The notes beneath the pieces were generated by a model that saw only the letters and a program-made list of their open reading frames with translations, was not told the origin of the DNA and did no database searches. Of a DNA stretch of 64,000 bases, positions 13,262-51,120 are shown piece by piece. The position numbers were made by a program, and so were the translations under genes. Origin of the DNA: Loxodes magnus (Eukaryota; Ciliophora; Karyorelictea; Loxodida; Loxodidae); contig CAMPDV010001582.1 of assembly GCA_946699065.1 (NCBI GenBank), forward strand, positions 1-64,000, read 5' to 3'. How positions within the stretch are numbered: the first letter of the stretch is position 1; every line of letters starts with the position of its first letter.

Positions 13262-13289
13262 CCACAAATTTTTTTAGTTAAATTTAATT

Positions 13290-15783: not shown

Positions 15784-16855
15784 TCAACTCGAAACTCTCC
15801 ACTTTCTTATCGTCTCGTCATATCCTCCCGATACCAACCATCTATTATCAACACTCAATGCTATAGATTATATTAAACTTGTATGTCCTTACAAAGTCTA
15901 TATACACTCACCCTTATCAAAGTTCCAGATCTTGATTGTTTCATCGTAAGATCCAGAAAATATAACACTTGAATCAACACTTAACTGAATACTTGATACA
16001 CCATCTACATGACCTTAAAGAGTACGAATAAACTAACCAGAAAAGAAGTCCCATATCTTAATAGTACTGTCATCCGAGCCTGATATTATATACCTGATAT
16101 CCTTAGACACTATCACCGATAAAACAGAACCTGAATACCCAGTATGAGTTCGCACAAGCTGACCTGTCTAGAAATTCCAAATCTTTATAGTTTTATCCCA
16201 AGATCCCGATATAATATATCTAGAGTCATAGGAGATTACTACCGATATAACTGTATTAGTATGCTCAGACAAAGTCCTTTAGAGAGTTCCATTGTGGAAA
16301 TTTCAAATCTTTATGGTTTTGTCATAAGATCCTGATACTATATATCTATAGTCAGGGGAAATTACTACCGATGTAACATATGAAGTATGACCCGTTATAG
16401 TTCTTTGAAGAGCACCAGTCTATAAGTTTCAGATCTTTATGGTTTTATCATCAGATCCTGATACTATATAGCTAGAGTCTGAGGATATTACTACCGAGTT
16501 AACTGAGGAAGTATGTCCTGTTATAGTTCTTAGGAGAGTACCTGTCTGGAAATTCCAGATCTTTATAGAATTTTCAGGAGTTCGTAAACTTGATACAATT
16601 CAATTCAGGTCACTTGATATGGCTACCGACTAAACACGTGAAGTGTAACTATTAAGGATTTAATCTATAAAATATTAAAGAAATACCTTTACTTTGGTCA
16701 TAACTGATCTTATTTATTAACTTTTAGTAGCATAAGTTAGGCAGAATTTCATACTTAAAATGAAGTAGAGATATTTTCCCTAGGATGTGGCTTCTCGCTC
16801 TTAAGAGTTTTCTTAAAAAAATAATTTTAGCAAATTGCTTTTCTTTTTTCTCCAT
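15784..16855 (-). CDS. WD40 beta-propeller protein, copy 1
   Basis: Read on the minus strand with TAA/TAG as Gln. Exon 1 (16855-16687) encodes a 56-residue basic N-terminus starting MEKKEKQF, with [20 protein letters not shown] 22-nt GT-AG gap (16686-16665) follows, and removing it restores frame. Exon 2 (16664-15784) encodes seven WD repeats of about 42 residues (GHxxxV-SV-ISxD-xYIISGSxDxTIKIW). The last repeat ends RKWRVSS and TGA. TGA also occurs in frame at 16602, 16431 and 16305, each where Trp is expected (DLN-W-I, TIKI-W-N twice). There are no frameshifts. WD40 propellers are protein-binding scaffolds; the specific partner is unknown. It is either a gene using TGA as Trp or a copy inactivated only at Trp codons. 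Confidence 0.75.
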
Positions 16856-16999
16856 TTTAATTTTTATAACTTACTTCAATAAATATTTAATTAAAATAAC
16901 TCAATGAATTTTACTTACTTAATTTCAATATAATTAAACAATTAAATTATTTATTACGCATACTTTTAAATATCTTCTTAAACATTGATTTTTCTATTT

Positions 17000-17018
17000 T
17001 TGTCTTAAAACAAGACAA
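17000..17018. promoter_or_regulatory. conserved palindrome upstream of WD40 gene
   Basis: TTGTCTT-aaaac-AAGACAA, a perfect 7-bp inverted repeat with a 5-nt spacer, about 145 bases upstream of the ATG. The same palindrome sits at the same distance in the other two copies (33548-33566 and 51264-51282) while neighbouring bases vary. An operator-like or RNA-hairpin role is inferred. Confidence 0.5.
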
Positions 17019-18251
17019 GATAATAAACTAATAGTGTACAAACTTTTATAATTTTAATTATTTTATATCCTTTTACTTTTAAATGAAAGGATAATTTATT
17101 ATATCAAAAGTTTATAACGAAGAATTATATCCTTATTATAATAACTTTAATATGCATTTATTAATTATTACTTATTTGTGCTTAAAATAAAAGACTCTTA
17201 ATAAGAATACCTTATTTCTTTATAGACTCTTTTAAATAATAAATAAAATATTAGCATTTTTTAAGGCTATTGCTATTAATTATTACTTTTCACTTACATT
17301 TAATCAAAAAAAAGGATTTCTTTAAACTTTTTACTAATTAAAAAAAGTAAATAAAATTGAGTTTCTTATTAATTAGTTTGAATAAATATTAAGAAACATC
17401 AAATTATTTAAAACAAAGCATTTTTAGAATTTATAATATAAACTCTTTTAATTGCCCACTTTCTTACTACTATTTCATTAAAACTTTTTATTTATAAAGG
17501 TCTCTCTTATAATAATAAACTAATATAATTTATTATAATGTTGATTCTAAGCAAAATATATAAATGTAATAAATATAAGTAGTAGAAAGTAAATATTTAA
17601 ACTAGCTATAAATGGTGTATCACTAATTATATCTTACAATTATTAAATAGTAATATTTAATTTTATTATTAAAATAAGCTTTAATATGTTTAATTATGTC
17701 TATTAAATACTTAATATTTCATCCTTTTAGCTTTATTAGTTATTAATTAATTTCTCTTTAATTTAGATATTAGATTAGTTATAATTAATACATTTAGATA
17801 ACTTTCTCTTTTTATAGCAAACTAATATTATATTTATTATTTATGTTATTTTTGTAATTATCATTTCTAATTAATAATACCTAAATTATTCTAGATTATT
17901 TAAAGATAAAAACTTAATTCTATTATTATATACAAATCTATATTATATTGCTAACACTATTAATACTCTCTTTCTTAAAATTAGTTGTTTGATATTTAGA
18001 AAATTATAAGTTTTTTTAAGAAAGCATATTTTTACTATCTTCTATTATTATTTTCTGAATTAATAGAAAGAGTAAACTTAACATAATATGTTTCTTTGTA
18101 ATAAGTATGAGATAATATAAGTATTAGATTAGCTAGTATAAGTTATTTAAAACTAAAATTAATGTCACAATAAATTCTAGTTGGTTTTAGTCATAAAATT
18201 TAAAAAGAATACAGTCTTTAGTAGTAATAAGAAAGTATTTAAATAAACATA

Positions 18252-18770
18252 ATGAAAGTGAGAAAAAAATTAAACCTACAAGATAAGAGTTTTAAATCTT
18301 AAATTGAATATTATTAATTAAAAGATTCAAGAATATCATTTCCTATCTAGAATGAAATAGCTGCTAAGTTACAATTTTTCTCAATAAAATAAAATAATCA
18401 ATTACAACAAAAATGCATGCTTGATATTTAAAAAATATTTAAGTTTTTAAGTAGTAATAGATTGGATATTGAGCATGGTTTAACAAGTGTTTCTATAGAT
18501 AAAATAGAGTAACAAAAGTTTTACAGAAGAATTAAATAATTATAGAATTCCAGTGTTTCTAAATGAATAAAAAAGAAGTCACTAAAATTTAATTAATCAA
18601 AGTCTTAAATAAAAAAGTTGCTATTAAATGAGAAATGTACATATCCAAAGGGGTTGCCAAAATGTCTATTTTGAACTTATAAATCTAAGAATTGTCCTTT
18701 TGAAAAAACAAAAAAGTGTAAATCCTTCTAGAACTAGAATATTCAATGGCTTTTATAAAATTTAGATTGA
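18252..18770 (+). pseudogene. Cys-containing unassigned frame
   Basis: An ATG at 18252 opens 104 codons to a TGA (18564). The same frame continues through a second TGA (18672) to a third (18768). The second part carries EKCTYPKGLPKC and NCPFEKTKKC, a C-x9-C-x9-C-x7-C spacing that could be a small zinc-binding module. If TGA were Trp, the TGA at 18672 would sit between the first and second Cys pairs. The sequence is unique in the window, just inside the WD40 element boundary. No family is recognised. Coding status is uncertain. Confidence 0.3.
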
Positions 18771-19463
18771 AATATTCATGCAATAGCTCGAGATCTAAAT
18801 TTTCGAAGTAGCATAATTTTACACACTCTTTAAGTTTTTCAATTTCTTGATTATCTTAAATCAAAAATTTTCAGTTACGTTTATTTTTTATTTTCTAAAG
18901 AACCTAAGTGCTTCAGAATGAGAGTGATATCATAAAAATTATTTTATTAAGCTGAAAGGCAAGCATTATTTAATTTAATTTAATATTTTCTAAGGAATAT
19001 AAAAAATTGCTGTCTTTTTTCCAACTTTGCAATATCTTAGATTGAATTTGCTGCTTCATTCACTTCACTATTCAATAGACATAAATTTAAACCCCAAAAT
19101 TACAAAAGCATTCATACTTTAGTCTCTTGAAAACATTATCATTCTAATCCTTTAAAACTCTATCTGCTTAACTTCCCTTTTCTTAATTTAGATCATACTA
19201 ATCTATTTTGATTTTCCTTATATCTTTAAGCTAAAATAAATCTAAAATACTAACTACCATAAAAAGCATTAAAGCTAGATTTTATTTTTAAATTAGTTTA
19301 ATATACTTATTAGCAAATATCTTGTAAATAAAAGCTTAGAATGAAATATATAGTATATTTAAAGGTTTAATGTATCTTGTTAGTTTATTAAATCTTATTT
19401 AAAAATAAACGCTTTTTGTTTTCCTTTATTTTAACTTTTATTTTATTTTATTTTTCTCTTAAA
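18771..19463. other. AT-rich spacer, nothing recognised
   Basis: No conserved frame. A pyrimidine-rich run precedes the next small frame. Confidence 0.45.
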
Positions 19464-19793
19464 ATGTGAAATTTCTGTAAACCTGTTTCATCTGGGAAAC
19501 TAGATAAAGAGAATCGTTTTGAAATTTTAGATATGTAGCGAGGCGTCATCTCTTTTAAAAAATAGAGAAAGAAAGTAGAAATACCAGCTGGGATTTATAT
19601 TTCGGTAAAAACGGAAAAGAGTTTAAGAAAATACATTTTAAAACTTGAGGTTGATATAGATATGAAAAATATCAAAAGGTAACACAAGTATTTGCATTTA
19701 AAGAATGGATACTTTTATCTTTATTTGATTGAAAATAGTAGGACCAGATTTTAAATATTATTATAATTAGTCGTTTTACTACTGAAGCACTGA
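19464..19793 (+). CDS. small unassigned frame
   Basis: ATG-TGA at 19464-19469, then an open frame of 107 codons (NFCKPVSSGKLDKENRFEIL, later KVEIPAGIYISV and YFYLYLIENSRTRF) to TGA at 19791. The region has more G+C than its surroundings. The residue mix (Gly, Pro, Asp, Glu, Arg) is less biased than in random AT-rich frames. Translation from the ATG would need TGA read as an amino acid at codon 2; otherwise the frame is the 3' end of something larger. Not recognised. Confidence 0.3.
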
Positions 19794-20406
19794 AATCTAC
19801 GTTTGTTTAGATGTAGTATATTAAAATTTAATTATTACATAGAACAAAATGCTAGTGATATGCAATTAATATGAGTTGAACGATTGATAATCGAATTACT
19901 TTATAAAAGCATTGTAATGATTTAAATATCAGAAATATCTGAGATATAAAAAAATCGAAAGAGAAGTTACTTTTAAATCAATGATAGATTTAAAAAATAA
20001 CACCAGAGAAAAAAAAGGTAAAGAAAATGTCTACTCTATGCTAGGTAAAGTTAAAAAAATAAAGAGCTGTAATAATTTAAATATCTTAGTCGTAATTTCG
20101 ATCTATATAGCAGAGATCTTAAATTATGAATATCTTGACTTTTAATTTATATAAAATAGATCTTACATATATCAGCTTATTTAAAATAGAATGCTTATTT
20201 ATTTTTTGATTAAGATACTACTTATTTCCTTAAAGCAACATAAAAATTTGTTAATAATTTTTTTCATATTTCCTTAGTTTGATTCACAGCTGTATACGAT
20301 TTGAGACCTTTGAAATTATTTAATTCTAAAAATTATTGATTCCTTCAGACAATATTTTTATTTTGACTTCTATTTTATATCAATTAGCTTTGCTTGTAGC
20401 TTTGTT
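19794..20406. other. spacer, nothing recognised
   Basis: No conserved frame or RNA is seen. Confidence 0.45.
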
Positions 20407-20712
20407 CATATTGAATCATGTGAAGCTCTGCAAGATCTAATTTAGGAATTTAAAGATTTTAAAAATTACGACCTAATAAAAATGTTAACATATAATTAAA
20501 GTTATCTTACTCTTAATTTCCCTACTTAAAAACAGCTAAGAGAAATAGATTTTAGAATTAAAAGCTTCCATTAACAATTATTGAAGAGAAGAATTGAAAT
20601 CCTATAGTGGAATGAGGAAATACTACAGTGGCAGAACGATTTGGATAAAGTTGTAGCAGTAGGAGGAGAAGAACAAGAACAAGAAGAAAAAGAAAAAGAA
20701 CATGAGCAATGA
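20407..20712 (+). pseudogene. LINE ORF2 C-terminal tail fragment
   Basis: Starts inside the zinc motif (HIESCEALQDLIQEFKDFKNYD) and stays open for 101 codons to TGA at 20710. It ends in Glu/Lys/Gln repeats (EEQEQEEKEKEHEQ). It aligns with the tails at 4578-4940 and 60110-60440 but has its own acidic end. The part before the zinc motif is missing, so it is a very short 5'-truncated insertion. Confidence 0.65.
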
Positions 20713-21299
20713 ATAAAATAGGAATGATGAATTAGATGTAAAATAAACAGTTTTATTATCTATATGAAAATATAGTAAAGACATATTAAATGATATTATT
20801 ATTATTAGCTTTGCTTGGCTTTCTATATTACCAAACAACGTAAGCTTACTTATTGAATATCGATCTTTTATTTTATGATTTTTGCATGATTATAAACGTT
20901 TTAAGTAAAAACTCCTCATTACTATTTCTTGTTAGTGCAAATTTTTTTAACTATGACTGAATATGAAAAGCTTTTTAGTTTAATATCTCTTTCATTTACT
21001 AAATTTCCTATTTGTTTCGGAAAATAAAAATGTTCGAATATCTTTTTTAGTAGATTGTTAATTCACTAAATTTTTATAGCATAAATCACCCAGTTTCTTC
21101 TTATCTTTGAACTTTAGATATTGTTTAATTTAAATCTGAGAATACTTCTAGCAAATTTTAGTATTTAATTTTGAAATAATTCAAATTTTATCTTATAGAG
21201 CTGTAATTATAACTCTCTATTTCAATATAAAATGGAACTATGAATGAAAAGAAAATTAAAGGTATAATATAAGACTTTTTGCAAAAATAAATAAAAATA
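20713..21299. other. spacer, nothing recognised
   Basis: No supported gene. Confidence 0.45.
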
Positions 21300-21900
21300 A
21301 AAATGCAAAATTAAATGTTTGGCGATCTTGGAGATATTTCAACCTTTTTCCCGCCAACTTCTAGATTGATCTAGAAACATAAAATAAAAGTTTGAAAATC
21401 TCTAAAACTCTTCTCCTTGCCCATGCTTTTTGTCCTTGAATTCTTAAATCACCTAGATACTAGATATCATTTTTTCTTGCAAGTTTAACATATTTGTTAC
21501 TATATAGTCTTTCTCTTTATAGTTTTAGTTGTTACTATCTCTTCTTTTATTTTTCCAAATACTTCTACCAGTTTTAATATTCTTTCTTGAAATTGAGAAA
21601 CTTCTAGCAGCTTTTTCACAGATATATTTGAGAATTACAATATTAACATCTTTTTACTTGTCTTTTAGTTGAAATCTTGAGTAATTTTTGTCTTCAATTA
21701 TTATTAGATTATTCCTTATTCTTTCAGTTTCATTTAACGGAGCAATTTTATCTGATTTTCTAATATTTTTCTAACTTGTGAATCAACTCTTTCTACTTCT
21801 ATTGCTAGTTTTGAGTTTAGCTGTTCTAGTCTTGCTAAATATTTCAAATTACGTTAAGGTCTCTTTCTTATGCCTTTGATCCAATTCTGTATTTAAATTT
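21300..21900 (-). pseudogene. ORF1-like frame, diverged
   Basis: The minus-strand segment at about 21860-21690 matches the coiled coil of block X (QQKQKELIHKLEK). Further on the same strand comes RQVKRCQYCNSQIYL, then a basic stretch with KYVKLARKN, LGDLRIQGQKAWARRR and SRSIQKLAGKRLKYLQDRQ. The Arg/Lys-rich end and the CxxC pair suit a nucleic-acid-binding ORF1 protein, but no domain is recognised. Frame changes and TGA codons interrupt it. Confidence 0.35.
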
Positions 21901-22430
21901 AAATTTTTACAAAAATATGAAAATTCTATTTTTAATTTTTAAATAAATAAAGAAAAAACATACTAATTTTTCTATAATTTAAATTTTCTCAATTAATTTA
22001 CTAAAGTTTGTTTAAATCTTAAATTAAAAAAATTTTGCATCTATCGACTACATATCTTTACGTAAAAATAAAGTTTTTAGTAATTTAAAAAATTTATTTG
22101 AGATTAAATTAATTAAACGACAAAGTTAATTTATTTTTTTTAAAATTCTTTCTTTAAAAACATTAATATGAAAAAAAGTTGCCATTTATACAATAAAATA
22201 AACTTATATAATCTATGTTTATCTCATTTAATTTGGTTAATTTATCTATTTTTTTTATATAATAAAGAATTTTAATTATAGAGTGCGTAGAACCAGGTTG
22301 GTATGCAAGTTTTTCAATATTAATATTAATATAAAAGTGTTCTCATTATTCATGTTATTCATTCTATTCATTCAGTAAATCACATCAGCTTTTCCAAGTG
22401 GAAAAAACGACCTATTAATAATTAAAAAAA
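21901..22430. other. AT-rich spacer, nothing recognised
   Basis: No supported gene. Confidence 0.45.
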
Positions 22431-22439
22431 TGGAAAATT

Positions 22440-23045
22440 ACTAGTAAAAAATCTCTTCTAAAAAGGAATCATCTTAGTACAGTTATGCGTAATAAAAAAT
22501 AATTAAAAAACTCTAAATCATGCAATAAAAAATTTTAAGCTATAAAGAACTGTACAAGAAATTGAAAGAAAAAATGAAAACTTGATGAGTAATTCAAAAG
22601 AGAGAACATTGAAAATGAAAAGCTAGGAATTATAAGAATAGAATAACTAGAAACAAAATTTAATCAAATCGTAGAGCTAACTGAAAGCATATTACTGCAA
22701 AAATTTAGATGAATGATCCGATGATTGTAAAGAGAAAGCCTAAAGAAGATTATATTCCCGAATGGAAATCAAAAAGATGTTAAAAATTAAAGCAACCTAA
22801 GCAAAAGTTAGAAACTGCTTACATATCAAATTAAAAAAAAATAAAATAGAGAACTAATAAGAAACAATCTCGAGGATTTTTTGAAAATAAGAAGGTAAAT
22901 TATACAGGAAAAATAACTCAAGATAAACAAAGAAATTATTAACATAAAGAAGGCAGCAAACAATTTATTAAAAAAATGAATGAGAATCGAACTTTCAGAA
23001 ACTCTAAGAAAAAATAGAATAAAAATTTTTAGAAGATAAGATTGC
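22440..23045 (+). pseudogene. Lys/Glu/Gln-rich coiled-coil remnant
   Basis: Plus-strand frames give long Glu/Lys/Asn/Gln helices (RTVQEIERKNENLMSNS, MEIKKMLKIKATQAK, KNKIENQQETISRIF) interrupted by TGA and frame changes. Composition resembles the ORF1-like frames elsewhere. It runs up to the truncated tRNA-Lys repeat at 23051. Origin uncertain. Confidence 0.3.
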
Positions 23046-23050
23046 AAAAT

Positions 23051-23094
23051 GGCCCGAACCCACCAAATTAAGAGTCTGACTGAGCTAGCCGGGC
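23051..23094 (-). pseudogene. truncated tRNA-Lys(CTT)-like copy
   Basis: The minus strand from 23094 reads gcccggctagctcagtc, then actcttaat and gtgggttcg, after which homology stops in the T-arm. It matches the longer copy at 23708-23763. The next ~45 bases on the 5' side of the tRNA (plus coordinates 23095-23140) are also shared with 23764-23807, so the two copies come from duplication of a segment larger than the tRNA. Confidence 0.7.
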
Positions 23095-23604
23095 TTATTC
23101 TTTATAACTCATCTTTCTTAAATAATTTTTATTTGCTTTATTCTCAATAAAAATGTAAATATAATGTGCGTTTTTTTCGAACTTAGAAATAACTCTTTTA
23201 TGACTGATTTTCATTACTCAAGTATATTCACATATTTTTCAAACTAAATTGTATCTATTTTAACCAGTTTTTAAAACTTAAACATCGTAATAGTTATATC
23301 AAAAGAAAACGGGCCATAAAGATGTGCTTATTTTTAACTATATTAAACTTTTTTACTTTTTAGGAAGTTAAAGATGACTGTATATGGCAGGAAATATTCT
23401 GAGATTAAATCTCTTTTTTACAAATTTATTTTTAGACCAAAATCTTAAATAAATGTTATTTGAAAATATTTAAAAAAATATTAGAGCATTTTAAATATGC
23501 CTTCAAAACTTATGATTTCAAGTTTATAGCAACTACTAAAATGACTAATTTGCTGTTTTTAAAAATAACATCCTTATAGATACTCATATGAAATAATTTT
23601 GCAC

Positions 23605-23683
23605 TAAAAAGATTCAAATGTCCAGTGGTTAGAATATTCTACTATAACTCGAAAGCCCCGAGTTCAAATCCTGATATTATCTT
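23605..23683 (+). pseudogene. tRNA-like sequence (Glu/Asp type arms)
   Basis: A D-arm-like tccagtggttagaat (A box) and a T-arm-like gagttcaaatcctg (B box) are correctly spaced around an imperfect anticodon-type hairpin. The acceptor arms do not pair. This fits a decayed tRNA gene or tRNA-derived repeat, not a working tRNA. It lies 25 bases from the tRNA-Lys pseudogene on the opposite strand. Confidence 0.4.
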
Positions 23684-23707
23684 TTTATTAATTAATAAAA
23701 ATAAAAA

Positions 23708-23763
23708 CGCCCAACGTGGAGCTCGAACCCACCAAATTAAGAGTCTGACTGAGCTAGCCGGGC
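23708..23763 (-). pseudogene. tRNA-Lys(CTT) pseudogene, D-arm deleted
   Basis: The minus strand gives acceptor GCCCGGC (23763-23757) pairing with GTTGGGC (23715-23709, one G.T and one mismatch). It then has TAGCTCAGTC, an anticodon loop CTCTTAA (anticodon CTT) and a near-canonical T-arm GTGGGTTCGAGCTCCAC. It is 56 nt long against about 73 for tRNA-Lys: the second half of the D-loop and the D-stem partner are missing. It is therefore a tRNA-derived relic. The parts present are very close to the eukaryotic tRNA-Lys consensus. Confidence 0.8.
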
Positions 23764-23809
23764 TTATTCTTTATAACTCATCTTTCTTAAATAATTTTTA
23801 TTTGTTTTA

Positions 23810-26755: not shown

Positions 26756-26759
26756 AAAA

Positions 26760-27396: not shown

Positions 27397-27432
27397 ATGA
27401 ATAACTCCAACAGGGATCTACAAATAAAAGCT

Positions 27433-27553
27433 TTTTGCAAGACCACTCGAACGGTTACAGTGGTAACCTTCCACTTAATAAAAAGGTCGTGGATCACACC
27501 TACGTTAAAAAAACTGTCCGCAGGAACTGGTTGCAATTCCAGAGAATGCAAAA
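27433..27553 (+). ncRNA. G+C-richer structured island, tRNA-Lys-like
   Basis: The outer stem TTTTGCA (27433-27439) pairs with TGCAAAA (27547-27553). Inside are a D-arm-like CCACT/AGTGG hairpin with a GG-containing loop (27443-27463), the triplets CTTAAT as in the tRNA-Lys anticodon loop, AAGGTCGTGG as in its variable and T arms, and a 5-bp T-arm CGTGG/CTACG with a 7-nt loop (27488-27504). The anticodon loop is too large and the B box is lost. Codon choice in the overlapping open frame is unlike its neighbours. A decayed tRNA-derived RNA gene is favoured. Confidence 0.35.
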
Positions 27554-27615
27554 CTCTACTAACTTTAAGTATATTATTATTATTATTATTAAAGGAAAAC
27601 TTTAGCTCTTTATAA

Positions 27616-32514: not shown

Positions 32515-33547
32515 CAAATTATGATGTGCTATAAAGCAAAACATGAAGTATTGCTGATTAGGAACCGAAAGATATAGAATAATAGTAGACTAATAAAATG
32601 TATTAAGAGTAAATAATAATCTATTAGATTAGTTTTAAATAGTTTATATTAGCTAATCTAATACTTATATTATCTAATACTACAAAGAAACATATTATGT
32701 TAAGTTAACTCTTTCTATTAATTCAGAAAATAATAATAGAAGATATTAAAAATATGCTTTCTTAAAAGCTTATAATTTTCTAAATATCAAACAACTAATT
32801 TTAATAAAGAGAGTATTAATAGTGTTAGCAATACAATATAGATTTGTATAGAATAATAGAATTAAGTTTTTATCTTTAAATAATCTAGAATAAAGGTATT
32901 ATTAGATTGAAATGATAATTACAAAAATAACATAAATAATAAATATAATATTAGTTTGCTATAAAAAGAGAAAGTTATCTAAATGTATTTATTACATTTA
33001 TATATTTTGCTTAGAATCAACATTAAAGGTAATAAATTATATTAGTTTATTATTTTAAGAGAGACCTTTATAAATAAAAAGTTTTAATTAAATAGTAGTA
33101 AGAAAGTGGACAAATAAAAGATTTATCTTATAAATTCTAAAAATACTTTGTTTTAAATAATTTAGAGTTTTTTAATATTTATTCAAACTAATTAATAAGA
33201 AACTCAATTTTATTTACTTTTTTTTAATTAGTAAAAAGCTTAAAGAAATCCTTTTTTTTAATTAAATGTAAGTGAAAAGTAATAATTAATAGCAATAGCC
33301 TTAAAAAATGCTAATATTTTATTTACCAATTAAAAGAGTCTATAAAGAAATAAGGTATTCTTATTAAGAGTCTTTGATTTAAAGCACAAATAAGTTGTAA
33401 TTAATAAATGCATATTAAAGTTATTATAATAGGGATATAAATTCTTCGTTATAAACTTTTTAAATAATAACTTATCCTTTTATTTAAAAGTAAAAGGATA
33501 TAAAATAATTAAAATTGTAAAAGTTTGTACATTATTAGTTTTATATA

Positions 33548-33566
33548 TTGTCTTGTTTTAAGACAA
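33548..33566. promoter_or_regulatory. conserved palindrome upstream of WD40 gene
   Basis: TTGTCTT-gttttt-type spacer-AAGACAA, the reverse-orientation counterpart of 17000-17018, about 145 bases before the ATG at 33711. Confidence 0.5.
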
Positions 33567-33710
33567 AAATAGAAAAATCAATGTTTTAGAAGATACTTAT
33601 AAGTATGCTTAATAAATAATTTAATAGTTTAATTTTATTGAAATTAAGTAAGTAAAATTTATTGAGTTATTTTAATTAAATAGTTATTTAAATAAGTTAT
33701 AAAAATTAAA

Positions 33711-34782
33711 ATGGAAAAAAAAGAAAAGCAATTTACTAAAATTATTTTTTTAAGAAAACTCTTAAGAGCGAGAAGCCACATTTTAGGGAAAATATCTCTA
33801 CTTCATTTTAAGTATGAAATTCTGCCTAACTTATGCTACTAAAAGTTAATAAGCAAGATCAGTTATGACCAAAGTAAAGGTATTTCTTTAATATTTTATA
33901 GATTAAATCCTTACTGTTCATTCTTCAGCTGTGTTATCGGTAGCTATATCAAGTGACCTGAATTGAATAGTATCAAGTTCAGGATATCCTGAAAATTCTA
34001 TAAAGATCTGGAATTTCCAGACAGGTACTCTCCAAAGAACTATAACAGGATATACTTCTAATATTTTATCGGTAGTAATATCCCCAGACTCTAGATATAT
34101 TATATCGGGATCTTTCGATAACACGATAAAGATCTGAAATTACCACAATGGAACTCTCTAAAGAACTATAACGGGACATACTTCCTCAGTTTACTCGGTA
34201 GTAATCTCCCCTGACTCTAACTATATAGTATCGGGATCTTATGACAAAACCATAAAGATCTGAAATTTCCACAATGGTGCTCTCCAAAGAATTATAACGG
34301 GGCATACTAATACAGTTATATCGGTAATAATCTCCTATGACTCTAGATATATTATATCGGGATCTTGGGATACAACAATAAAGATTTGGAATTTCTAGAC
34401 TGGCCAGCTTGTGCGAACTCTTACTGGGCATTCAGACTCAGTTTTATCGGTGATAGTGTCTAAGGATAATAGATATACAATATCAGGTTCTGGTGACAGG
34501 ACTATTAAGATATGGGACTTCTCTTCTGGTTAGTTTATTCGTACTCTTCAAGGTCACGTAGATGGTGTACGTAGTATTCAGTTAAGTGTTGATTCAAGTG
34601 TTATATTTTCTGGTTCATGGGATAAAACAATCAAGATTTGGAACTTTGATAAGGGTGAATGTATATAGACTTTGTAAGGGCATACAGATCCAATATCTTC
34701 TATAGCATCGAGTGTTGATAATAGATGGTTGGTATCGGGAGGACATGACAATACTGTGAGAAAATGGAGCATTTCGAGTTGA
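33711..34782 (+). CDS. WD40 beta-propeller protein, copy 2
   Basis: Exon 1 (33711-33879) gives MEKKEKQF and a basic N-terminus nearly identical to copy 1. A 22-nt gap (33880-33901, gtatttc...tttatag) and exon 2 (33902-34782) follow. There are seven WD repeats with typical GH and WD/WN dipeptides ([33 protein letters not shown]) and stop TGA at 34780. TGA is in frame at 33964 (DLN-W-I in copy 3), 34135 and 34261 (TIKI-W-N). No frameshift occurs over 349 codons, and many Gln are TAA/TAG. A seven-bladed propeller is complete in fold terms. No catalytic domain is attached. A protein-interaction role is inferred. Confidence 0.75.
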
Positions 34783-35457
34783 GTAACTTGCTATTTGACT
34801 TAATTTAATTTTACGATTAAAGATATAAGATATTGATTATTCATTTAAATGAATGTTTAATGGTAATAATGTTTTTAGTTTTATGAATTTTTTTTAATTT
34901 ATTTAAAATTTGCTATATTCTTAAATATTATTGGTTTAAAAAAAAGGTTGAGTAATATGTTATAGAAATTAGTGAGGTATGTTGATTTAAAGTGGTAATG
35001 TTTAAAAAGTATTAAAATATAATTTTGTTAAATGAAGACGTACAATAAATTTAAGTTTAAATTTATGCTATAAAATTTTATAGATTTATTTTTAGATTTT
35101 GTAAAAATTTCAAGTTGAGTAAAAATTTTCGCTTTTTTTGTGAAGTAGTTAAAATATTATTTATAAGGTTAAAGTTAGTTTATAATTTTGATTATTAATT
35201 AAAAAATTTAATTAAGTATTTATTTTATTTTAAATTAAATTAAATTTTGTTTTTTAATTTTGTTTTTTTATGATTGATATTTAATATTAATTATTATTAT
35301 TATTAATTATAATTAATTATTAGTGTTTATTATAATTATTAAATTTTAACATTTAAGTTTAATATGTTTCGTTTCCGATTTGGAAAATTAATTTTTCTGA
35401 TGGTAAGTTTTTATCTTTCAGGTTTAGAGCTTAAATTTCATGAAAACAAAAATTTGT

Positions 35458-36280
35458 TTTTTTGCTCATAGTTTTACACTACCAAAGATTTTTGGGACGG
35501 AATAAATTTAATTATTTCGGGATAAAAATACCTAAATAGGAATAAATTTTTTTATTTCGGAATAAAAAAGCTAAAAAGGAATAAAAAATACCTAAATAGG
35601 AATAAAAAATTTAAAATTTTTTTTATAATATATTTTTGAAAGCGATTTTTGAAAATATTTGTTGGAAAATTTTTAAAAAATTTGTTTTTTTTTAGGAAAA
35701 TGAATTTTTATAGCTTCCTTTGATTAAAAATTTTTTCGAAAAATTACAAATTTGTTATTTGCTCAGTGATTTATACTACCATAGATTTCTGGGACGGAAT
35801 AAATTTAATTATTTCGGGATGAAAAAAGTTAAAAGGGAATAAAATTTCAAAAAAAATTTCAAATATAAAAGATTTTTGAAAAAAATAGGAATTAAAAAAA
35901 TTTTTTAGTATAATTAGAATTTGTAAATCTTCTTTTTAAAATGGTATTTTGTAAAAATGAAAACACTTATTTTTGTTTTAAGGAAAAATATTTGATTTTT
36001 TTTTATTTTAGCAAATTTTTTGTTGCTTTTTTTTATGTTTTTGATAAAAATTAATTTTTTTTGACTTGAACTAAAATTAAAAAAATTTTAATTTCTTTTC
36101 AAGTAAATGAAAAACTAGTGATAAAATTTTTTAATTTTATAAGAATTTACTTAATTGAGAAGGATCTCAATTAAAAAGAGAGAAAAGAAAGTAAAGAATG
36201 AAATTGGGAAAAATTATTTTTTATTTTTTAGCTCTGAGTCTTACACTTCAAAAGATTTTCAGGATGGATAAATTAAAAAA
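35458..36280. repeat. tandem repeats in WD40-element 3' flank
   Basis: The unit gctca-agttttacactacc-aaagatt-ttgggacggaataaat occurs at about 35460-35505 and 35760-35805, with a diverged version at 36230-36275. Between 35505 and 35620 a short unit of the type ttcgggataaaa/cctaaataggaat repeats about four times. Copy 3 carries the same repeats, inverted and expanded. Confidence 0.7.
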
Positions 36281-39060: not shown

Positions 39061-39102
39061 ATCTTGAAATGAGGGGACAAAAAAAGAAATTTTAATTTAT
39101 GA

Positions 39103-40995: not shown

Positions 40996-41344
40996 GTTGA
41001 AAAACTTTAAAAAAACATTATAACAACTTTAATTGAAGGAAGTAATTCCAACAATGAAAAGATGTCTCAAGACTCTTTTAGTTAAATTTAAATAAAGAAC
41101 AACATGTGTAAGAGAAGGATTTAGATTAGCTATCTATAATTAAATATTGCACTAGTGTTGGGAATACTAGTTGATTTTTGCCTTTCATTATAATATCAGT
41201 AATGCTAGCTCCAATTTAACAAAAAAAATTCTACTTAGTAAAAAGATAAAAATTACACCATTTAATCTTTATTCTCAAAATCAGAGCAAAGAAATAAATC
41301 TGAAGTAAGATAACTATTTATTAAAAATTAAGAGTTGTCAAGAT

Positions 41345-42125
41345 AATCAAAATCTTGCTTACTTATGAATATTTGCAAATAGATATTATAATTGATGATT
41401 TCAAAGAGTTTAATAAGCATAGCAATATTTAAATAAAAATGTTTATTCTAAGAATGCCTTTAAAGAATGCAGTCATGTCAACAGTAAAAAGATTTGCTAA
41501 ATTAATAAAAGATATATAAAACATTTTCTCTTTAATAATATACGCTAAATACAATAGATATCTAATTTAAGAAACTATTTCAATCTAAAAACTAATTACT
41601 TATACATATAATTTTTAATATGAACTGAATCATCGATATATCAAATTCAATTTAATAAACTTTGCTTAAGTAAATAGGAATTTGATACATTTGAGTACAT
41701 TTTCAAGTGTAATCTTTTTACAAATATTTAAAATTTTTTTTAATAAACTTAAAATAATTAATGGAAAATAGTGTAAAAAACTTTTTTTATATGATTAAAC
41801 TATATGAAATCGTTTTCAAAAGATAAGATAATTAAATTAAATAAGTACATAAAAATATTTAAATAATATTTAGAAGACCATTAGAGATTTTAAGAACTAG
41901 AGTAAATAGAAAATAGATTATATTAAAAACCCATAAACAGATTTAATGAGCTAAAAAATTCTTTATCAAGAGGAGAGTGAAAGAGAACCATGAATGAAAT
42001 ATACAAACTTTTAAATTTAGCTTAATTTGCCTGGTTAAATGCCAATAATTATACAATTATGTCTCAATATTTAAAATATTTAAACTCTTATAGTTTATTA
42101 TTATTACTTATTATTTAAACTTTTA
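41345..42125 (+). pseudogene. unassigned TGA-studded frame, copy B
   Basis: Copy of 7852-8655. Loss of one A near 41467 breaks the frame, but the C-terminal part (EWKRTMNEI with the first W as TGA, LLNLAQFAWLNANNY) stays readable. One TGA of copy A (8494) is GGA here. Not recognised. Confidence 0.3.
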
Positions 42126-43244
42126 AATAGTGAATAAGATTTTTAAATTATTTTAATAATTATCATTTATTTTATTATTTTTAAGCTAAAATATGAAAAT
42201 TTTCTAATATAATTCTTGATATATATCAATAATAAAAATGATAGGATAAATAAAATTTAATCTTTTAGCATTTATAATATTAAAGGATAGTTTTAGTTAA
42301 AATATGTTTTTAAATAAAAGAAATAAAGTAATTTAATTATAGTTAAATATTTTATGTAAGTATAATTTTCTTATTATTAGCAAATTAATAATAATGACTT
42401 ATATTTAAATTTCTTTAACTAACAATGATAAAATAATTAATTTTACATAATTATACTAAGTTTAATTAAATTTTGATATATAAATTAATAATTTATACTT
42501 AACTTTAAAATATAATAAAAGTTAGTTAAGATTATTATTATAATTACTTATATTACTTAGAACTAAAAATTATACATTCATTAAATTTATAATTATTGAT
42601 AATTCTTTATTAATTTTATTTTATACAGTTATCTCTAAAGATATGTTTAACTATATTTACTTTTTAATTTACTAAATTATTGTTTTAATTATTGTAGACA
42701 TTAATTATTAAATGTGAACTTTTATATTTTTATAATCTAGTAATCAAATGCTTATTGTTAACCAATTATTTAAAACTCTTATCAAAATTATGAAAAGCAT
42801 CCTATTTATTAGTTTTAAATTAATACAAAGATAATTAATTCTAGCTAAGCATATAATTATTGAATTATTTTAGATTTTTGATATAGTATTTTTAATATTA
42901 ATATCTTACTATTATAAAGGATTATTTTAAACTATATTTTGCTATCATTTAGAATTTATATTATTAAAGTAATAAAGCTAAGGTTCTCTTTAGTTTACTT
43001 AGAACTTAAATTCCTTTTAGATATTTCTTCCTTTATATTATCTATGTTTTATTAATTGTAGTTAAATAAAGAGTTCTTTAAATGGCTTGATTAGCAATTT
43101 AATTAGTTTTTAGAACTTAAATTTTAATATTTATTTATAAAAATAAATGGTATAAATTAAAGCTATTTAGTAATAATATTTCAATTTAATAATAGAGTTA
43201 TTGTATGAAACTGTTTATTTAAATTTTAAATTAAAAGAGTTTTT
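42126..43244. other. AT-rich spacer, nothing recognised
   Basis: Counterpart of 8660-9785. No gene signal. Confidence 0.5.
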
Positions 43245-43249
43245 TGAAA

Positions 43250-45660
43250 TCTATAACTGCATGAATTGCTTCCTTCAATTATAGACATTAGTAAATGTTT
43301 TTAATGCTTTTTAATTATAATCTTGATTTCATAAATTTTAAATTACTCTTGTTATAGTCTCTCTTTTATGTCTTCCTTTTTTACTTTTTTCATTTCTAAA
43401 AATCTAATCTTCTTGATATAAGTTACTTGTGAAATACTTTTATTTATAAATCTAAATATCCCAAATAAGACTTTGGAAAGAAGTTTATAAGTATTTAATC
43501 ATATATTATAAAGCGTCTTAAGTCATAATACTCAATCTTTTACGATAGTCAATCTCTTATATTAGAATAGTATATACATCTAAAAATGTGCTAAATTTTA
43601 CCATACTCTCCACACATACAGTAGGGATTATCAATAGGATAATGATGATCTTAAAGATATTTTCGAAAACTATAAGATTGGGTTCTAAGCTTATATATAC
43701 TGATAATTTCTTGTCTAAATTATTTGTTCAATTTAGTGTAAGTAATTACTAGAATTGGTTAAGATATGAAATTGTTTAGTATATATTTTAGCTTTTTCAT
43801 TCTCTTAAAATTTTGAGTAGCTGTATTATAGAAATATTATTGTATTTTGTCTCTTATATATTTAGTAAAAATTTTTTAATTTGTACTAATCTTAGAATTC
43901 TACTGATCGATACTATAGAGGTCTGATAATTGCTAAACTTGATCATAGCATTGAAATCCTTTTTTTCAGTTGGTAATGAAAAGAGAGTCTATTGTCGACG
44001 TTGGAAAATCAATATTTTCTTATTTCATTTTATAATAGAATTAAAAAAACTTTATTGCCATAATGTGTTTGAAAGATAACCAGTTTAAATCTATGAAGCA
44101 TAACTTATTTATGTGCTTAAAGTGCTTTTCTTGAAATCATTCTCATATTTGATTCAATTCTATTCAAAACTCAAGTTATTCCTCTCTGAATACACCATGG
44201 TACTAGTTCTCTCCATATTCTGCTTTAGGTAATGTAAAAAGTCTGCATAAAGTTTTAAAATGTCAAGAAATCACATTCTTATATCTCATAAGTTAAAAAC
44301 AGCTTTTTCATTGCAACTAAATACTTGATCACGACTTCTCTACAATGAGAATTAAAATTCTTCTTCTAATGTAGCATTACATCTAAATATGTTACTTGTT
44401 CCTTTTAAATAATTGGTTAATTAACTAATCATAAATTTAAATTTTATTATTTCTAATGTTTCTTTAAAATTTAGATGCATTCAGATTTGATAAATTTGAT
44501 CTTTAATTGATTTTATGTAAAAATGCTTACCTTTAGCACGTTTCCGATAGTTATCAATTATTTGTTATATTATTCAAATTTATTAAGTTGCTTATCTAAT
44601 TTTTATAAATCCCATTTATGTAGGGTGAATCAAATTTCTCTAATAAAGCAGATTGCAAATTCTTTTTGTTAAAGCTTTATCATATAGTTTTATAATAATA
44701 TTAATAAGAGAAACAGGTAATCAGTTTTTCCAGTCATCTTTGATTCCTTTTTTAAATATTGAAATTATCGCCAATGTATTTAATTCCTAAGAGATTCTTC
44801 CAAATCTTAGCATATTATTCAGAAAAGAGTGAAGAATTATTATCAAATATTATCCACCATATTTCAGAAATTCACCTTTTATTCTGTCTGAATCAGCTGA
44901 TTTTCCATTCGTAATTTCTTGTATTTCTTGTATGGTAAAAAGATAAAATCCTAATAAATATGAGAGTTGATAATTTTTAATTTCCTATATGCTATCTTAT
45001 ATTTTATCTATTTTTTAATTACTGAGAATTATATTATTTAGTTAGATTAAAATTTTTCTAAAAAATAAATTCTTCCATGACTCAATGGATTTATTTTTGA
45101 TTTCTTAATCAAAGTTCATTTAATTTATTATTTTAGGGTTTTTAATTTTCTTAGTATGTGAAAATATTTCTTTAGCATCTCCATTTAGAAGTAAAAGTTT
45201 CTTTTTTGCTTTGTTTTTTCAAAATTTCACAAATTAGAATTGAAGTCATTCAGAATGTCGTTTCACTTTTTCATGAATATTAGTTACTTATTAGTTTATT
45301 CTTCCAGATATAATGTATGCTTCTTATATACTGAGTTAGCCCTTTTAGGCCTACATATTTCTTAGTAAGATCTCGAGGAAATTTGTTATAACTTGAGTCT
45401 GGAATAAAGGATCCCAATGTTTAATCAGCATATTATTAGATGTTATTTTTGATAAATTCATATTAAACTTCAAGATTATCTTAATCTATCTAAAAGAATT
45501 CTAGATAAGTTTGCAGGAAAGATTCTAAATATTTTTGACAATATATTGTATCTTATAACCTATTTATTTTATATTTCCTCAAATTCTTGCTCATCTTCAA
45601 TTAATCTCATATAAAATTAAGTTTTGTTTTATAAATAAATTTGCAGAAAAAAATTATCTT
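43250..45660 (-). pseudogene. LINE ORF2 (end of EN, RT, zinc tail), copy B
   Basis: Counterpart of 9790-12170 with the same domains. The RT core reads LPVSLINIIIKLYDKAL around 44710-44660, preceded by the same TGA (44723-44721) at the Trp position of NWxPxSL. The zinc motif CMCGEYGKIQHI lies at about 43620-43580. Extra changes relative to copy A lie in the linker. Both copies share the older frameshifts, so the element was dead before block Y was duplicated. Confidence 0.75.
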
Positions 45661-45959
45661 TTTAAGCTATAATATCATCTTATCACTGTTTATCTTATAA
45701 AAGAATTGTTTTAATAATTAAGTTTTTATCTTTAAATAATCTAGCAATTTTCAGTTGATATCATACTTTATGAATAAATATAATTACAATCTTTAAAATA
45801 TTAATAAAATAGATAAATAAACAATAAATAATGACTATTTAATTAGAAAATGAATATGAAAACATTTTAATTTAATTTCTTGATAAGATATTTTAAATTT
45901 AAATAAGTGTTTAATCTTTTAAAAATCATATTTATTAAACCACTACAGAACAATTTTAA

Positions 45960-46535
45960 AACCTAAGATAATTCCCCAAAATAACATACACGAAATTAAA
46001 CAAAAAATATTTGAAAGAAATAATTTGCATCTATAAGATTAGAAGCCAGTCTTACGCATTTCGAAAGACTCTGAAAGATCGAAATTATATTATTGAAAAT
46101 CCTTTTTGTATATGCGGAGAATATGACACTCTCCAACATGTAATGGAATGTATATATTACATTGATATAAGAGAATGATTGGTCTCCAAAATTGGTTAAT
46201 GTGATATTTTTAAACTAATAAATTACGATTAACTATATATAAACTCTTTTCCTAAGAAAAATAGAAATTGTGGATGAATAAATAAAAATATTCATTCAAA
46301 TGTTTATCAAAAGGAGGCAAGAAATTCTATAACAAGAGAAAGAAGAAGAGCAATACGAGAAATAATAAAAAGAAGCAAATCTAAGAATAGAAAATTTTAA
46401 TGAAGAGAATGAAGAATAATAAAATCAAGAAACAAAGAATAAGATGTCCAACAAAATTAGATGAAAAATGATGAGGAAGAAGAAGATTGGAACGAAGAGG
46501 AAAACGATAGCGAAGATGAAGAAGAAGAAGATTGA
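45960..46535 (+). pseudogene. LINE ORF2 C-terminal tail, acidic (copy B)
   Basis: Counterpart of 12500-13080. It keeps CICGEYDTLQHVMEC and the TGA at 46176-46178 at the Trp position. Two small deletions relative to copy A (AA near 46257 and one A near 46430) shift the frame before the acidic end. Confidence 0.75.
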
Positions 46536-46675
46536 CAACAGAAAATAGAAAAAAATGAAAGTTAGCTTGAAAATGAACAAGAAAGGAGATACTCAGAAGA
46601 AAAAAAACCTAAACTAGAAAATTAGTTCTGAAGAGCAATAAACTTGATATATAATAACATTTAAAAACAATATAA

Positions 46676-46715
46676 TACCTTCAATTGGAAGAACATATTC
46701 TGAAAATTGAAGGTA
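46676..46715 (+). other. 3'-UTR stem-loop of LINE tail (copy B)
   Basis: Identical 11-bp arms and loop to 13222-13261. Confidence 0.55.
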
Positions 46716-46749
46716 CCACAAATTTTTTTAGTTAAATTAAATTTAATTT

Positions 46750-48039
46750 ATTAAATCACTTTAAATATTATTATGTTTTGAATATTTAGTATCTTAAATT
46801 AAAAATTACTATATTGTATAATAACCAAACATTTATTAAAGGAATGTGAAATTAAAAATTATAATTTAGTTGTCTAATAATTTAGCATATAACAAAAATA
46901 GTTCATTATTAAGGTTGTTTATGAAATTGTGTACTATTAGCATTATTGGCTTAGTAGAAACTTTGCTTTTTATTATGCTATATATGTTTCTTTTTATATT
47001 GTACGAAATATTTCCCATTTTTTATAGATATAATTATAATAGTTATTAACTTACACTTTGTATATTATTTTAATTAATACAAAAAATTAAAGCTTTTCTT
47101 TTAACCTTTTTTGATATAATGAAGGTATATTGATTTCTTAATTATTTACACTTTCATTTTGCTAATTCTTATTATTTAATATTAGAATATAATTTTATTC
47201 TTATTTTAGATGGAATATAAGATAATTTACAAGAAAGTGAAGATTTTTATAATTTTGCATATATTCAAATTATTTATATAGTTTACTAGCAAATGCTTTT
47301 TATATGATAAATAATCAATCTATTTTTTAAAAAAGCTTTCAGCTTTAATAAAATAGCTTCATTAGAAATTCAAATTTTAAGATTAATAAATAAAATCGAT
47401 TTTCTACATGCACAGTAGATATGCTTAAGTTGCTTATAATCAGAAAGTTTATCTTTAAAGCTTTTCTTTTAATATTACAGAATGAGAAAAATTTTAAAGA
47501 GAAAAAATACTTAATATAGCAATTTTTCTTAAAAACTTGTTTTCCTCTTCTAAATTAACATCTTTTCGCAAACTAAAAACAGATAGTTAGTCGTAATAAG
47601 CTCTTTTCAAAACTCTTTTACTAATCTTAAATTTTTAATATTTTTATAATTATTATAATAAAGCAGAATATTTTTAAACTTGATTAATAAATTTTTGTTT
47701 CTATATTTTATATAGTTAGGTTAGATACATTATTTAGATCCTTGTTTAATTCCTTTTTTTAGATTCTTTGTAAATTGGCCTAAAATTTATTATTACAGAT
47801 GCATTATACCTCATTTTTTTTATTTGATTGATCATATTTTTATAAAGAGATTTTTTAGCTCTTTTTAGATTAGTTATTTTTAAAAATTTACAATATCCAT
47901 TAAAAAAATAGTTTTAAGCCCTCTTATAAAAAAAAATTTTACTGATTTTGTTTCTTCAAAAATTGTAATTTATTTTTTTATCTTTACTTCTTAAAAGTCA
48001 TTTAAAAAACTTTTCAAATCTTTTAAAATTCTATCCTTT
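46750..48039. other. AT-rich spacer, nothing recognised
   Basis: Counterpart of 13290-14589. Confidence 0.5.
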
Positions 48040-48539
48040 AAGAAAAGGATTTATCCACCCGAAATTCTTTTGTAGCGTATAACTCAGAGCGAAAAAAGGA
48101 TAATTTTTTCACGATTTCATGGTTATTTTATTATATCTCCTTTTTTCTTGAGATCCTTTTCATTTAAGTAAATTCATATAATATTAAAAATTTTAAAACA
48201 AATTTTTTCATTTACTCAAAAAGATGTTCAAAATTAAAAATTGTATTTTTTCCAAAGCATAAACAATAAATTTTTTTTATAATTTCAAACATAATTAACC
48301 TTATCAAAAATATACTTTTAAATAAAAAAGAAAAAAGTTTTGATGAAAATTTTTCAAAAAATTTTCTTAAAAACAAATTTTTTTTTTTAATTTTTACAAA
48401 AGACCATTTCTACAAAAAAAATTTCCAAATTCTATTTTAATATAAAATTTTTTTTAATTCCTATTTTTTCTCAAAAATTTTATATATTTGGAATTTTTTC
48501 TTGAAATTTTATTCCTATTTTAAAATTTTTATCCCGAAA

Positions 48540-49410
48540 TCATTAAATTTATTCCGTGCCGAAAATCTTTGGTAGTGTAAAACGCTGAGCAAAAAAACAA
48601 AATTTTTATTTTCATGAAATTTAAGCTCTAAAATTGAAAGATAATGATAAATAAAAAACTTAATATCAAAAAATTTTATAATCCAATCGGAAACGAAACA
48701 TATTAAAATAAAAATTTATTATTGAACTTAAACACAAGAATAAACAAATTTAAATAAATTTATAAACATATAACTTAAAAAACTAAATTACCATCCAAAA
48801 ATTCAAAATTTTTTTAGTTTTAAGTCTATTTAAAAAAAAAACCTTTTTTACATATTAAAAAAATGTATCCCGTCCCAGAAATATTTATCAAAAAAAGTTT
48901 TCAAAAAAATTCCTTAAAAAAAATTTAAAGATTTTTAAAATTAATTTCCAAATTTAATTTCAAAAACGATTTTAGATAATTATTTTCGAAATTATTTTAG
49001 AAACGCTTTTCTAAGAAGTTTTAAAAACTTTTTTTAAAATTACTTTCAAAATTTTTATTCCTATAATGAATTTTTTATCCCAAAATAAAAAAATTTATTC
49101 CTATTTAGATTTTTTTATCCCAAATAAAAAAATTTATTCCTATTTAGAATTTTTTATCCTGAAATAAAAAAATTTATTCCTATTTAGAATTTTTTATCCC
49201 AAAATAAAAAAATTTATTCCGTCCCAGATATCTTTGGTAGTGTAAAACGCTGAGCAAAAAAACAAAATTTTTATTTTCATGAAATTTAAACTCTAAAATC
49301 GAAAATAATGATAAATAAAAAACTTAATTTCAGAAAATTTTATAATCCAATCGGAAACGAAACATATTAAACTTAAATATTAAAATTTTATAATATCAAT
49401 AAATAATTAA
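48540..49410. repeat. duplicated 3'-flank module with 40-bp minisatellite
   Basis: A module running from ttattccgt, through ctttggtagtgtaaaacgctga, to aatccaatcggaaacgaaac occurs at about 48550-48700 and again at 49212-49365. Between them a unit of about 40 bases (ttttttatcccaaaataaaaaaatttattcctatttag type) repeats four times (about 49053-49220). The same motifs lie inverted at 35365-35620. Confidence 0.75.
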
Positions 49411-49908
49411 TAATTAATAATAATTAATAAATAATAAAAAAACAAAATTTAATTTAATTTAAAATAAATACTTAATTAAATTTTTTAAATTATAATCAAG
49501 ATTATTAACTTACTTTAACCTTATAAATAATATTTTAACCACTTCACAAAAAAAATGATAATTTATACTCAACTTGAAATTTTTACTAAATCTAAAAATT
49601 AATCCATAAAATTTTATAGCATAAATTTAAACTTTAACTTATTTCATTCTTTCATTTTACAAAATTATATTTTAAATATTTTTAAACATCACCCAGTTTA
49701 AATCAACATACCTCACTAATTTCTATAACCTATCACTCAACCTTTTTTTTAAACTAATAATATTTAAGAATATAACAAATTTTTAATTAATAAATTAAAA
49801 AACTTAATATAACTAAAAACATTATTAACATTAAACATTCATTTAAATACATTACCAATATCTTATATCTTTAATCGTAAAATTAAATTAAGTCAAATAG
49901 CAAGTTAC

Positions 49909-51120
49909 TCAACTCGAAACTCTCCACTTTCTTATTGTCTTGTCCCATCCTCCCGATACCAACCATCTATTATCAACACTCAATGCTATAGAAGATATTG
50001 CATATTTATGCCCTTATAAAGTCTATATACACTCACCCTTATCAAAGTTCCAAATCTTGATTGTTTTATCATTTGAACCAGAAAAGATAACACTTGAATC
50101 AACACTTAACTGAATACTTGATACACCCCTTGTATGACCTTGAAGAGTACGAATACACTAACCAGAAGAGAAGTCCCATATCTTAATAGTACTGTCAACA
50201 GAACCCGATATTATATACCTATTATCCTTAGACACTATCACCGATAAAACTGAGTCTGAATGCCCAGTAAGAGTTCGCACAAGCTGACCAGTCTAGAAAT
50301 TCCAAATCTTTATTGTTGTATCCCAAGATCCCGATATAATATATCTAGAGTCATAGGAGATTACTACCGATATAACTACATTAGTATGTCCAGACAAAGT
50401 TCTTTGGAGATCACCATTGAGGAAATTTCAGATCTTTATAGTGTTATCGTAAGATCCCGATACTATATAGCTAGAGTCTGGGGAAATTACTACCGATATA
50501 ACTACATTAGTATGTCCAGACAAAGTTCTTTGGAGATCACCATTGAGGAAATTTCAGATCTTTATAGTGTTATCAGCAGATCCCGATACGATATAGCTAG
50601 AGTCCTAGGAGATTACTACCGAGTTAACTGAGGAAGTATGCCCCGTTAAAGTTCTTATGAGAGAACCAGTCTATAAGTTTCAGATCTTGATCGTGTTATC
50701 AGCAGATGCTAACACTATACAATTAGAGTCAGGGGAGATTACTACCGAGTTAACTGAGGAAGTATGTCCTGTTATAGTTCTTATGAGAGCACCTGTCTGG
50801 AAATTCCAGATCTTTATAGAATTTTCTGGATATCCTGAACCTGATACAATCCAATTTAGGTCACTTGATATGGCTACCGATAAAACAGGTGAAGAGTGAC
50901 CAGTGAGGACTTAGTCTAAAAATATTAAAGAAATACCTTTACTTTGGTCATAACTGATCTTATTTATTAACTTTTAGTAGCATAAGTTAGGCAGAATTTC
51001 ATACTTAAAATGAAGTAGAGATATTTTCCCTAGGATGTGGCTTCTCACTCTTAGGAGTTTTCTTAAAAAAATACTTTTAGTAAATTGCTTTTCTTTTTTC
51101 TCCATTTATTTTTTCTCCAT
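49909..51120 (-). CDS. WD40 beta-propeller protein, copy 3 (eight repeats)
   Basis: The ATG matching the other copies is at 51105. An in-frame ATG at 51120 adds MEKKQ, a short duplication of the start. Exon 1 ends at 50937. The gap is 21 nt here (50936-50916, gtatttc...tttttag), so it is frame-neutral if unspliced. Exon 2 encodes eight WD repeats; two adjacent ones (NFLNGDLQRTLSGHTNVV) are near identical, a recent one-repeat (42-codon) duplication. TGA is in frame at 50682, 50556 and 50430, exactly 126 bases apart and all at TIKI-W-N. The DLN-W-I codon that is TGA in copies 1 and 2 is TGG here. No frameshift. Ends RKWRVSS and TGA. Confidence 0.75.

Follow-up and report, generated by a model that had tools for sequence, protein, structure and literature searches.

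In-frame TGA codons at tryptophan positions of WD40 genes in Loxodes magnus and their reading in the published karyorelict code

In this study, we analysed a stretch of 64,000 nucleotides (hereafter the window) that forms positions 1 to 64,000 of contig CAMPDV010001582.1 in the Loxodes magnus assembly GCA_946699065.1, and that carries three WD40 genes with TGA codons inside their reading frames. We conclude that the window is very probably (about 0.96) nuclear DNA of this karyorelict ciliate, and that its three WD40 genes are working genes written in the published code of the species, table 27. In this code, which is used by karyorelicts, UAA and UAG encode glutamine, and UGA is the only stop and is also read as tryptophan when it lies at a sufficient distance from the poly(A) tail (PMC11441545). 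A preliminary description of the window had proposed TGA to be tryptophan inside these genes and stop at their end, on the pattern of ciliates whose codes depend on context, and this is indeed the published code of Loxodes magnus. Since table 27 is published for this very species, the TGA finding is already known, and it amounts to the correct rediscovery of a rare code. The searches reported below cover the whole assembly (705,730,643 bp in 7,843 contigs); contigs and loci are given our own C and L numbers, the contig of the window being C1582.

Three WD40 genes with internal TGA codons

The first copy (15784..16855, minus strand) has 349 codons, with exon 1 at 16855-16687, exon 2 at 16664-15784 and a terminal TGA at 15786-15784. 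The second (33711..34782, plus strand) is also of 349 codons, with exons at 33711-33879 and 33902-34782 and a terminal TGA at 34780-34782. The third (49909..51105, minus strand) reaches 391 codons owing to one extra repeat; its exons lie at 51105-50937 and 50915-49909, its terminal TGA at 49911-49909, and an alternative upstream ATG is found at 51120. Each gene contains a predicted GT..AG intron, of 22 nt in copy 1 (16665..16686, minus strand) and copy 2 (33880..33901, plus strand) and of 21 nt in copy 3 (50916..50936, minus strand), where the published mean for Loxodes magnus introns is 19.3 bp, with 93% of them up to 25 bp (PMC11441545). With this predicted intron removed, each gene reads in a single frame. 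The earlier claim that about 1,090 codons are free of frameshifts stands as regards one frame per gene, over 1089 codons (349 + 349 + 391), provided that the introns are spliced out; it left unmentioned that copies 1 and 2 keep a single frame only without their 22-nt intron.

In the spliced translations, the Pfam family PF00400 was matched in 6 stretches of copy 1 (E 1.9e-73), 7 stretches of copy 2 (E 1.2e-77) and 8 stretches of copy 3 (E 1.1e-92). Exon 1 encodes a lead of 56 amino acids ahead of the WD40 propeller, in which no Pfam match was found over the cut-off. When TGA is read as tryptophan, most of exon 2 of copy 2 is predicted to fold as a propeller, with a mean predicted local distance difference test (pLDDT) score of 96.2, 27 strands and no helix, in a model built with 8 sequences. 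The three genes are predicted on this model to encode single beta-propellers of four-stranded blades, the number of seven blades being read from the strand order.

The nine in-frame TGA codons listed in the preliminary description were all recovered, three in each gene, and no further internal TGA is present, the only other one in frame being the terminal codon common to the three genes. In copy 1 (minus strand), the TGA at 16600..16602 stands for the tryptophan of the DLN-W-IV motif and those at 16429..16431 and 16303..16305 for that of TIKI-W-N. The same holds for copy 2 (plus strand), at 33964..33966 for DLN-W-IV and at 34135..34137 and 34261..34263 for TIKI-W-N, and in copy 3 (minus strand) all three, at 50680..50682, 50554..50556 and 50428..50430, fall on TIKI-W-N. 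In a codon alignment of the three copies (391 columns), the nine codons occupy four columns (78, 135, 177 and 219), all at tryptophan positions as had been claimed, and they represent about four ancestral events, which bears out the earlier caution that repeat duplication weakens the independence of the counts. Three of the four columns are the WD-repeat tryptophan in a 42-codon register with TGG anchors, and the fourth, column 78, is the DLN-W site, where copy 3 does have TGG and copies 1 and 2 TGA. All four lie within the 13 columns in which tryptophan is expected (8 from the repeat register and 5 that are TGG in another copy), for which the probability by chance is 7e-7. Each gene has 3 TGA in its coding frame, and one of the other frames on that strand has 13 to 17.

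The preliminary description had also considered that the three copies might be dead, AT-biased mutation having turned TGG into TGA. The family is indeed repetitive and present in many copies (of 2,865 candidates, 150 matches were scored), so some of its copies may well be dead, and the window itself is made of segmental duplications. However, the ratio of nonsynonymous to synonymous divergence (dN/dS) among the three window copies is 0.40, 0.40 and 0.44, well below 1, whereas the lowest values among 300 random reshufflings of those changes are 0.46, 0.43 and 0.51 for the respective pairs. Six further copies (L049-L054), drawn from the top, the lower part and the bottom of the 150 scored matches, all keep a full frame, a 22-nt intron at the site common to the nine copies and a terminal TGA (6/6), and carry TGA at DLN-W (or DMN-W) and at the second and third TIKI-W columns. 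One of them, L054, is almost identical to L053 and was excluded from the comparisons of eight copies, in which the 28 pairs have a dS of 0.08-0.28 (median 0.22) and a dN/dS of 0.36-0.66. Despite this median divergence, there is no frameshift in any of the nine copies.

The repeat tryptophan columns of the eight copies hold TGG 40 times, TGA 17 times and TAG never, in 57 cells that are not independent events. The G-to-A decay of TGG would yield TAG and TGA with equal ease, and the absence of TAG counts against it. Two other counts, TAG 0/51 from a repeat finder requiring tryptophan at the anchor and TGG 387/387 in the arrays described below from a finder requiring TGG there, are circular and are not taken as evidence; those used instead, namely these 57 cells and the 1395 array matches given below, come from searches with no tryptophan requirement at the anchor. 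Among the 28 internal TGA of the eight copies, 17 are at the repeat tryptophan, 7 at DLN-W and 4 at hypervariable columns. As judged from these substitution patterns, the WD40 copies are under purifying selection. Together with TGA at conserved tryptophans of RPC2, presented in the next section, these results contradict the death of the three copies, which we consider very improbable. Of the outcomes that the preliminary description had named as refuting its reading, a dN/dS near 1 and a lack of in-frame TGA in conserved genes are both contrary to what was observed.

TGA in conserved genes and the components that would decode it

The preliminary description had suggested tabulating TGA at conserved tryptophans of undoubted genes, and such codons are present in RPC2, a subunit of RNA polymerase III (L034). 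This gene has TGA at SGN-W-TLKRF and at PSS-W-GMLCP, and itself ends in TGA. At the first site, tryptophan is found in both RPC2 chains compared (5fj8_B and 7a6h_B) as well as in 36ro_B, which is less closely related; at the second, 7a6h_B and 36ro_B have tryptophan and 5fj8_B has phenylalanine. Codons were counted in nine segments of conserved genes, namely RPA2, an RPA2-like copy, RPC2 in two parts, RPB2, two copies of isoleucyl-tRNA synthetase (IleRS), valyl-tRNA synthetase (ValRS) and pelota. RPA2, RPC2 and pelota, the ones that were aligned, owe their names to comparison with solved structures; the other names (RPB2, IleRS, ValRS and RPA2-like) are those we presume from Pfam matches. The nine segments contain 72 TGG and 11 TGA and, for glutamine, 317 TAR (TAA or TAG) and 118 CAR (CAA or CAG) codons. 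TAR is also found at the glutamine of the RHG-Q-KG motif in the RNA polymerase subunits. Judging from these codons, UAA and UAG are glutamine in this genome.

TGA follows all six of the nine segments that were carried to the gene end (6/6), a result that is partly circular because each end was placed, on visual inspection, where homology stops ahead of a TGA. In RPA2 and RPC2, alignment with the solved chains runs to within a few residues of the terminal TGA. The internal TGA nearest to a gene end is 30 codons away in the nine WD40 copies and 41 codons away in the conserved segments, out of few TGA in all; in karyorelicts, coding UGA is reported to be depleted over about 20 codons before the stop (PMC11441545).

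These data also bear on a plain code in which TGA would be tryptophan everywhere and some other codon or signal would end the proteins. Tryptophan at the internal TGA of the WD40 genes would be in keeping with such a code too. Nevertheless, TGA stands at the expected end of 9/9 WD40 copies and after the six conserved segments, and within genes TAA and TAG encode glutamine, in agreement with the published code. With both of them sense inside genes, TGA is the sole stop left, and a plain code is highly unlikely. That the internal TGA would be selenocysteine or be skipped is just as implausible, as TGA and TGG alternate among copies at columns 78 and 254 and TGA aligns with the tryptophan of solved relatives, and no support for it was found, no search for selenocysteine machinery having been made.

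Several observations weigh against reading TGA as tryptophan within genes. The assignment of tryptophan as the residue at internal UGA is itself drawn from alignment. A third TGA of RPC2 falls on a column that is not tryptophan, and the TGA of pelota and three TGA of RPA2 align with residues other than tryptophan. TGA is moreover uncommon and uneven, ValRS and one IleRS copy together having 43 TGG and no TGA. In 20 array stretches of WD40 repeats found elsewhere in the genome, the codon at the tryptophan of TIK-x-W is TGG 1361 times in 1395 matches, otherwise TGT (27), TCG (3), TTG (3) or TGC (1), and never TGA. Finally, a split ValRS-type copy has two TGA and lies beside copies without TGA. 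This split copy may be a pseudogene, and therefore an in-frame TGA in this genome need not always be sense.

At the same locus (C29:1059200-1083985), four ValRS-type copies of equal score are found about 5.7 kb or more apart, in addition to the split copy.

A gene for tRNA-Trp(UCA), which the preliminary description had proposed to look for, had 0 matches in the genome to one exact pattern, which a divergent form may escape; a tRNA-Trp(CCA) with a 4-bp anticodon stem is present instead. A tRNA-Trp pattern allowing up to 3 mismatches matched the genome 209 times and, when reversed, 0 times. The 100 matches listed all have the anticodon CCA, with 48 on C67, 49 on C148 and 3 on C110. The C67 genes form a tandem array (C67:482300-491370) with a repeat of about 188 nt, the last listed copy being incomplete; those of C148 are one gene apart and an array (C148:155441-168721) with a repeat of about 241 nt. 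At the top of the anticodon stem, pair 27-43 is A.C in every complete C67-type copy read (L042 and L043, which overlap) and T.C in the 8 C148-type copies read, leaving a stem of 4 bp in both types. Two scored genes of the three listed on C110 have a 5-bp anticodon stem. A 4-bp-stem tRNA-Trp(CCA) raises UGA readthrough and was earlier found in Loxodes (PMC13092985), and the tRNA-Trp of Loxodes is also touched on in PMC12005148. The short-stem tRNA-Trp(CCA) described here is thus a confirmation. We met no statement on the size of the tRNA-Trp arrays in the portion of PMC13092985 drawn on here.

On C78, C103 and C158, other tRNA matches are regularly spaced, at about 1,752 and 527 nt, so that tandem arrays may extend to tRNAs other than tRNA-Trp.

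Two genes for the release factor eRF1 were found (L010 and L011, on C196). Both keep the NIKS motif and both have alanine at the site of Ser70: the motif reads NIKSRAVQKA compared with NIKSRVNRLS in the compared chain, the last serine of which we take to be human Ser70, and the TAS-NIKS of solved chains reads RAQ-NIKS. A 4-bp-stem tRNA-Trp(CCA) and a change at Ser70 of eRF1 are features linked elsewhere to UGA readthrough, with a putative role here. UGA is very probably read as tryptophan along most of the message and as stop close to the 3′ end. In the scheme that we propose, the short-stem tRNA-Trp(CCA) would read UGA and the altered eRF1 would compete poorly inside the coding region, both steps being suggested by published work on other species. 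Nearness to the poly(A) tail would then favour termination at the final UGA, following studies of Condylostoma and Parduczia (PMC4967479).

A large WD40 family with variable propeller sites

New here is that the window genes belong to a family with at least 150 members, in which some sites of the propeller are hypervariable. The family of the window genes comprises at least 150 interspersed copies scored out of 2,865 first-look candidates, with 89-98% identity to exon 1 of copy 2; the 150 include copies 1 and 2 of the window, and others lie on C360, C349, C13, C213, C743, C1642 and further contigs. It may be either a gene family or the cargo of a mobile unit of about 3 kb. The window itself is made of segmental duplications of about 86-95% identity, one of which is inverted around copy 2: 1706-8481 with 57215-64000, 7593-14906 with 41084-48365, and 15093-18156 with 49257-52424 and, inverted, 32629-35462. 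Its GC-rich stretches (601-1600, 1901-3900, 56001-57200 and 57401-59400, with 300-base windows of up to 38%) gave no Pfam match over the curated cut-off in six frames.

Elsewhere in the genome, WD40 arrays fill stretches of 10 kb (L012-L031; C119, C1503, C1832, C9, C620, C272, C6957 and others). In five of six such stretches examined, all TGG-anchored repeats are in one frame (75-79 repeats, with 8 to 84 TGA); in the remaining one, L012, this is the case for 74/79 repeats, with 7 TGA, and there is therefore a break or an intron there. In a set of 387 distinct array units, three variable columns hold TGA 78, 134 and 89 times and TGG never, with only 3 TGA elsewhere. The alternatives at two of these three columns are mostly other codons ending in A (NNA). 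Unlike the arrays, the window family has one variable column that holds both TGG (10) and TGA (2).

Selection at the variable columns was judged with columns taken from the array genes, since classes defined within the family itself (at least 4 residues) are circular. For five such columns, the ratio of nonsynonymous to synonymous differences (pN/pS) in the window family is 1.28, versus 0.40 for the other WD40 columns and 0.20 for the lead, in pooled pairs that are not independent. This recalls the HNWD WD40 sensors of Podospora (het-d and het-e), in which the repeats are likewise kept alike with a few hypervariable positions (PMC12222747), and the five columns coincide with five of the seven HNWD sites of that paper after an offset of our choosing. 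The proteins described here differ by their size of 349-391 amino acids, in which no NACHT domain is seen. We therefore rejected membership of the HNWD-type NLR proteins, as none of the 31 NACHT matches in the genome is on the window contig and exon 1 has no Pfam match.

It is tempting to speculate that this very large family, of at least 150 and perhaps thousands of copies, and the arrays serve in recognition and take advantage of the reassigned codon to do so. Such a system would diversify at the surface positions used by fungal NLR sensors, TGA-coded tryptophan would be part of this diversification, and the amplified short-stem tRNA-Trp would serve it. In the array units read, tryptophan at the hypervariable columns is always TGA, which would be one step away from other NNA codons, and the structural tryptophan is TGG. 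We regard this proposal as rather unlikely as a whole. In the literature, we found no paper joining Loxodes and WD40 nor, judging by the 10 titles listed of 26, one on ciliate WD40 genes. Beyond the published code, what may carry weight is how large the WD40 family is, that its hypervariable sites resemble those of NLR proteins and that TGA is used there.

Comparison with known genetic codes

A context-dependent meaning of the stop codon is among the rarest features of any genetic code. The WD40 genes offer clean and checkable cases of it, in which one codon means tryptophan at a structural column that does not vary and stop where the short gene ends, in many copies.

The closest system is table 27 itself, as described for Loxodes and Parduczia, with which the window shares UAA and UAG as glutamine, UGA as tryptophan inside genes and as the sole stop at their end, and short introns (PMC11441545, PMC4967479). 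Nothing that differs from it was found. The code of Condylostoma magnum is also context-dependent between stop and sense, and differs in that UAA and UAG act there as stops as well (PMC4967479). According to the same source, no tRNA-Trp(UCA) was detected in the macronuclear genome of this ciliate, and UGA was identified as tryptophan by mass spectrometry. Finally, Blastocrithidia resembles Loxodes magnus in having a 4-bp-stem tRNA-Trp(CCA) and a change at Ser70 of eRF1, which is linked there to UGA readthrough. It differs in that UAR (UAA or UAG) is glutamate, the stop is UAA, and Ser70 is changed to glycine there versus alanine here (PMC12153298).

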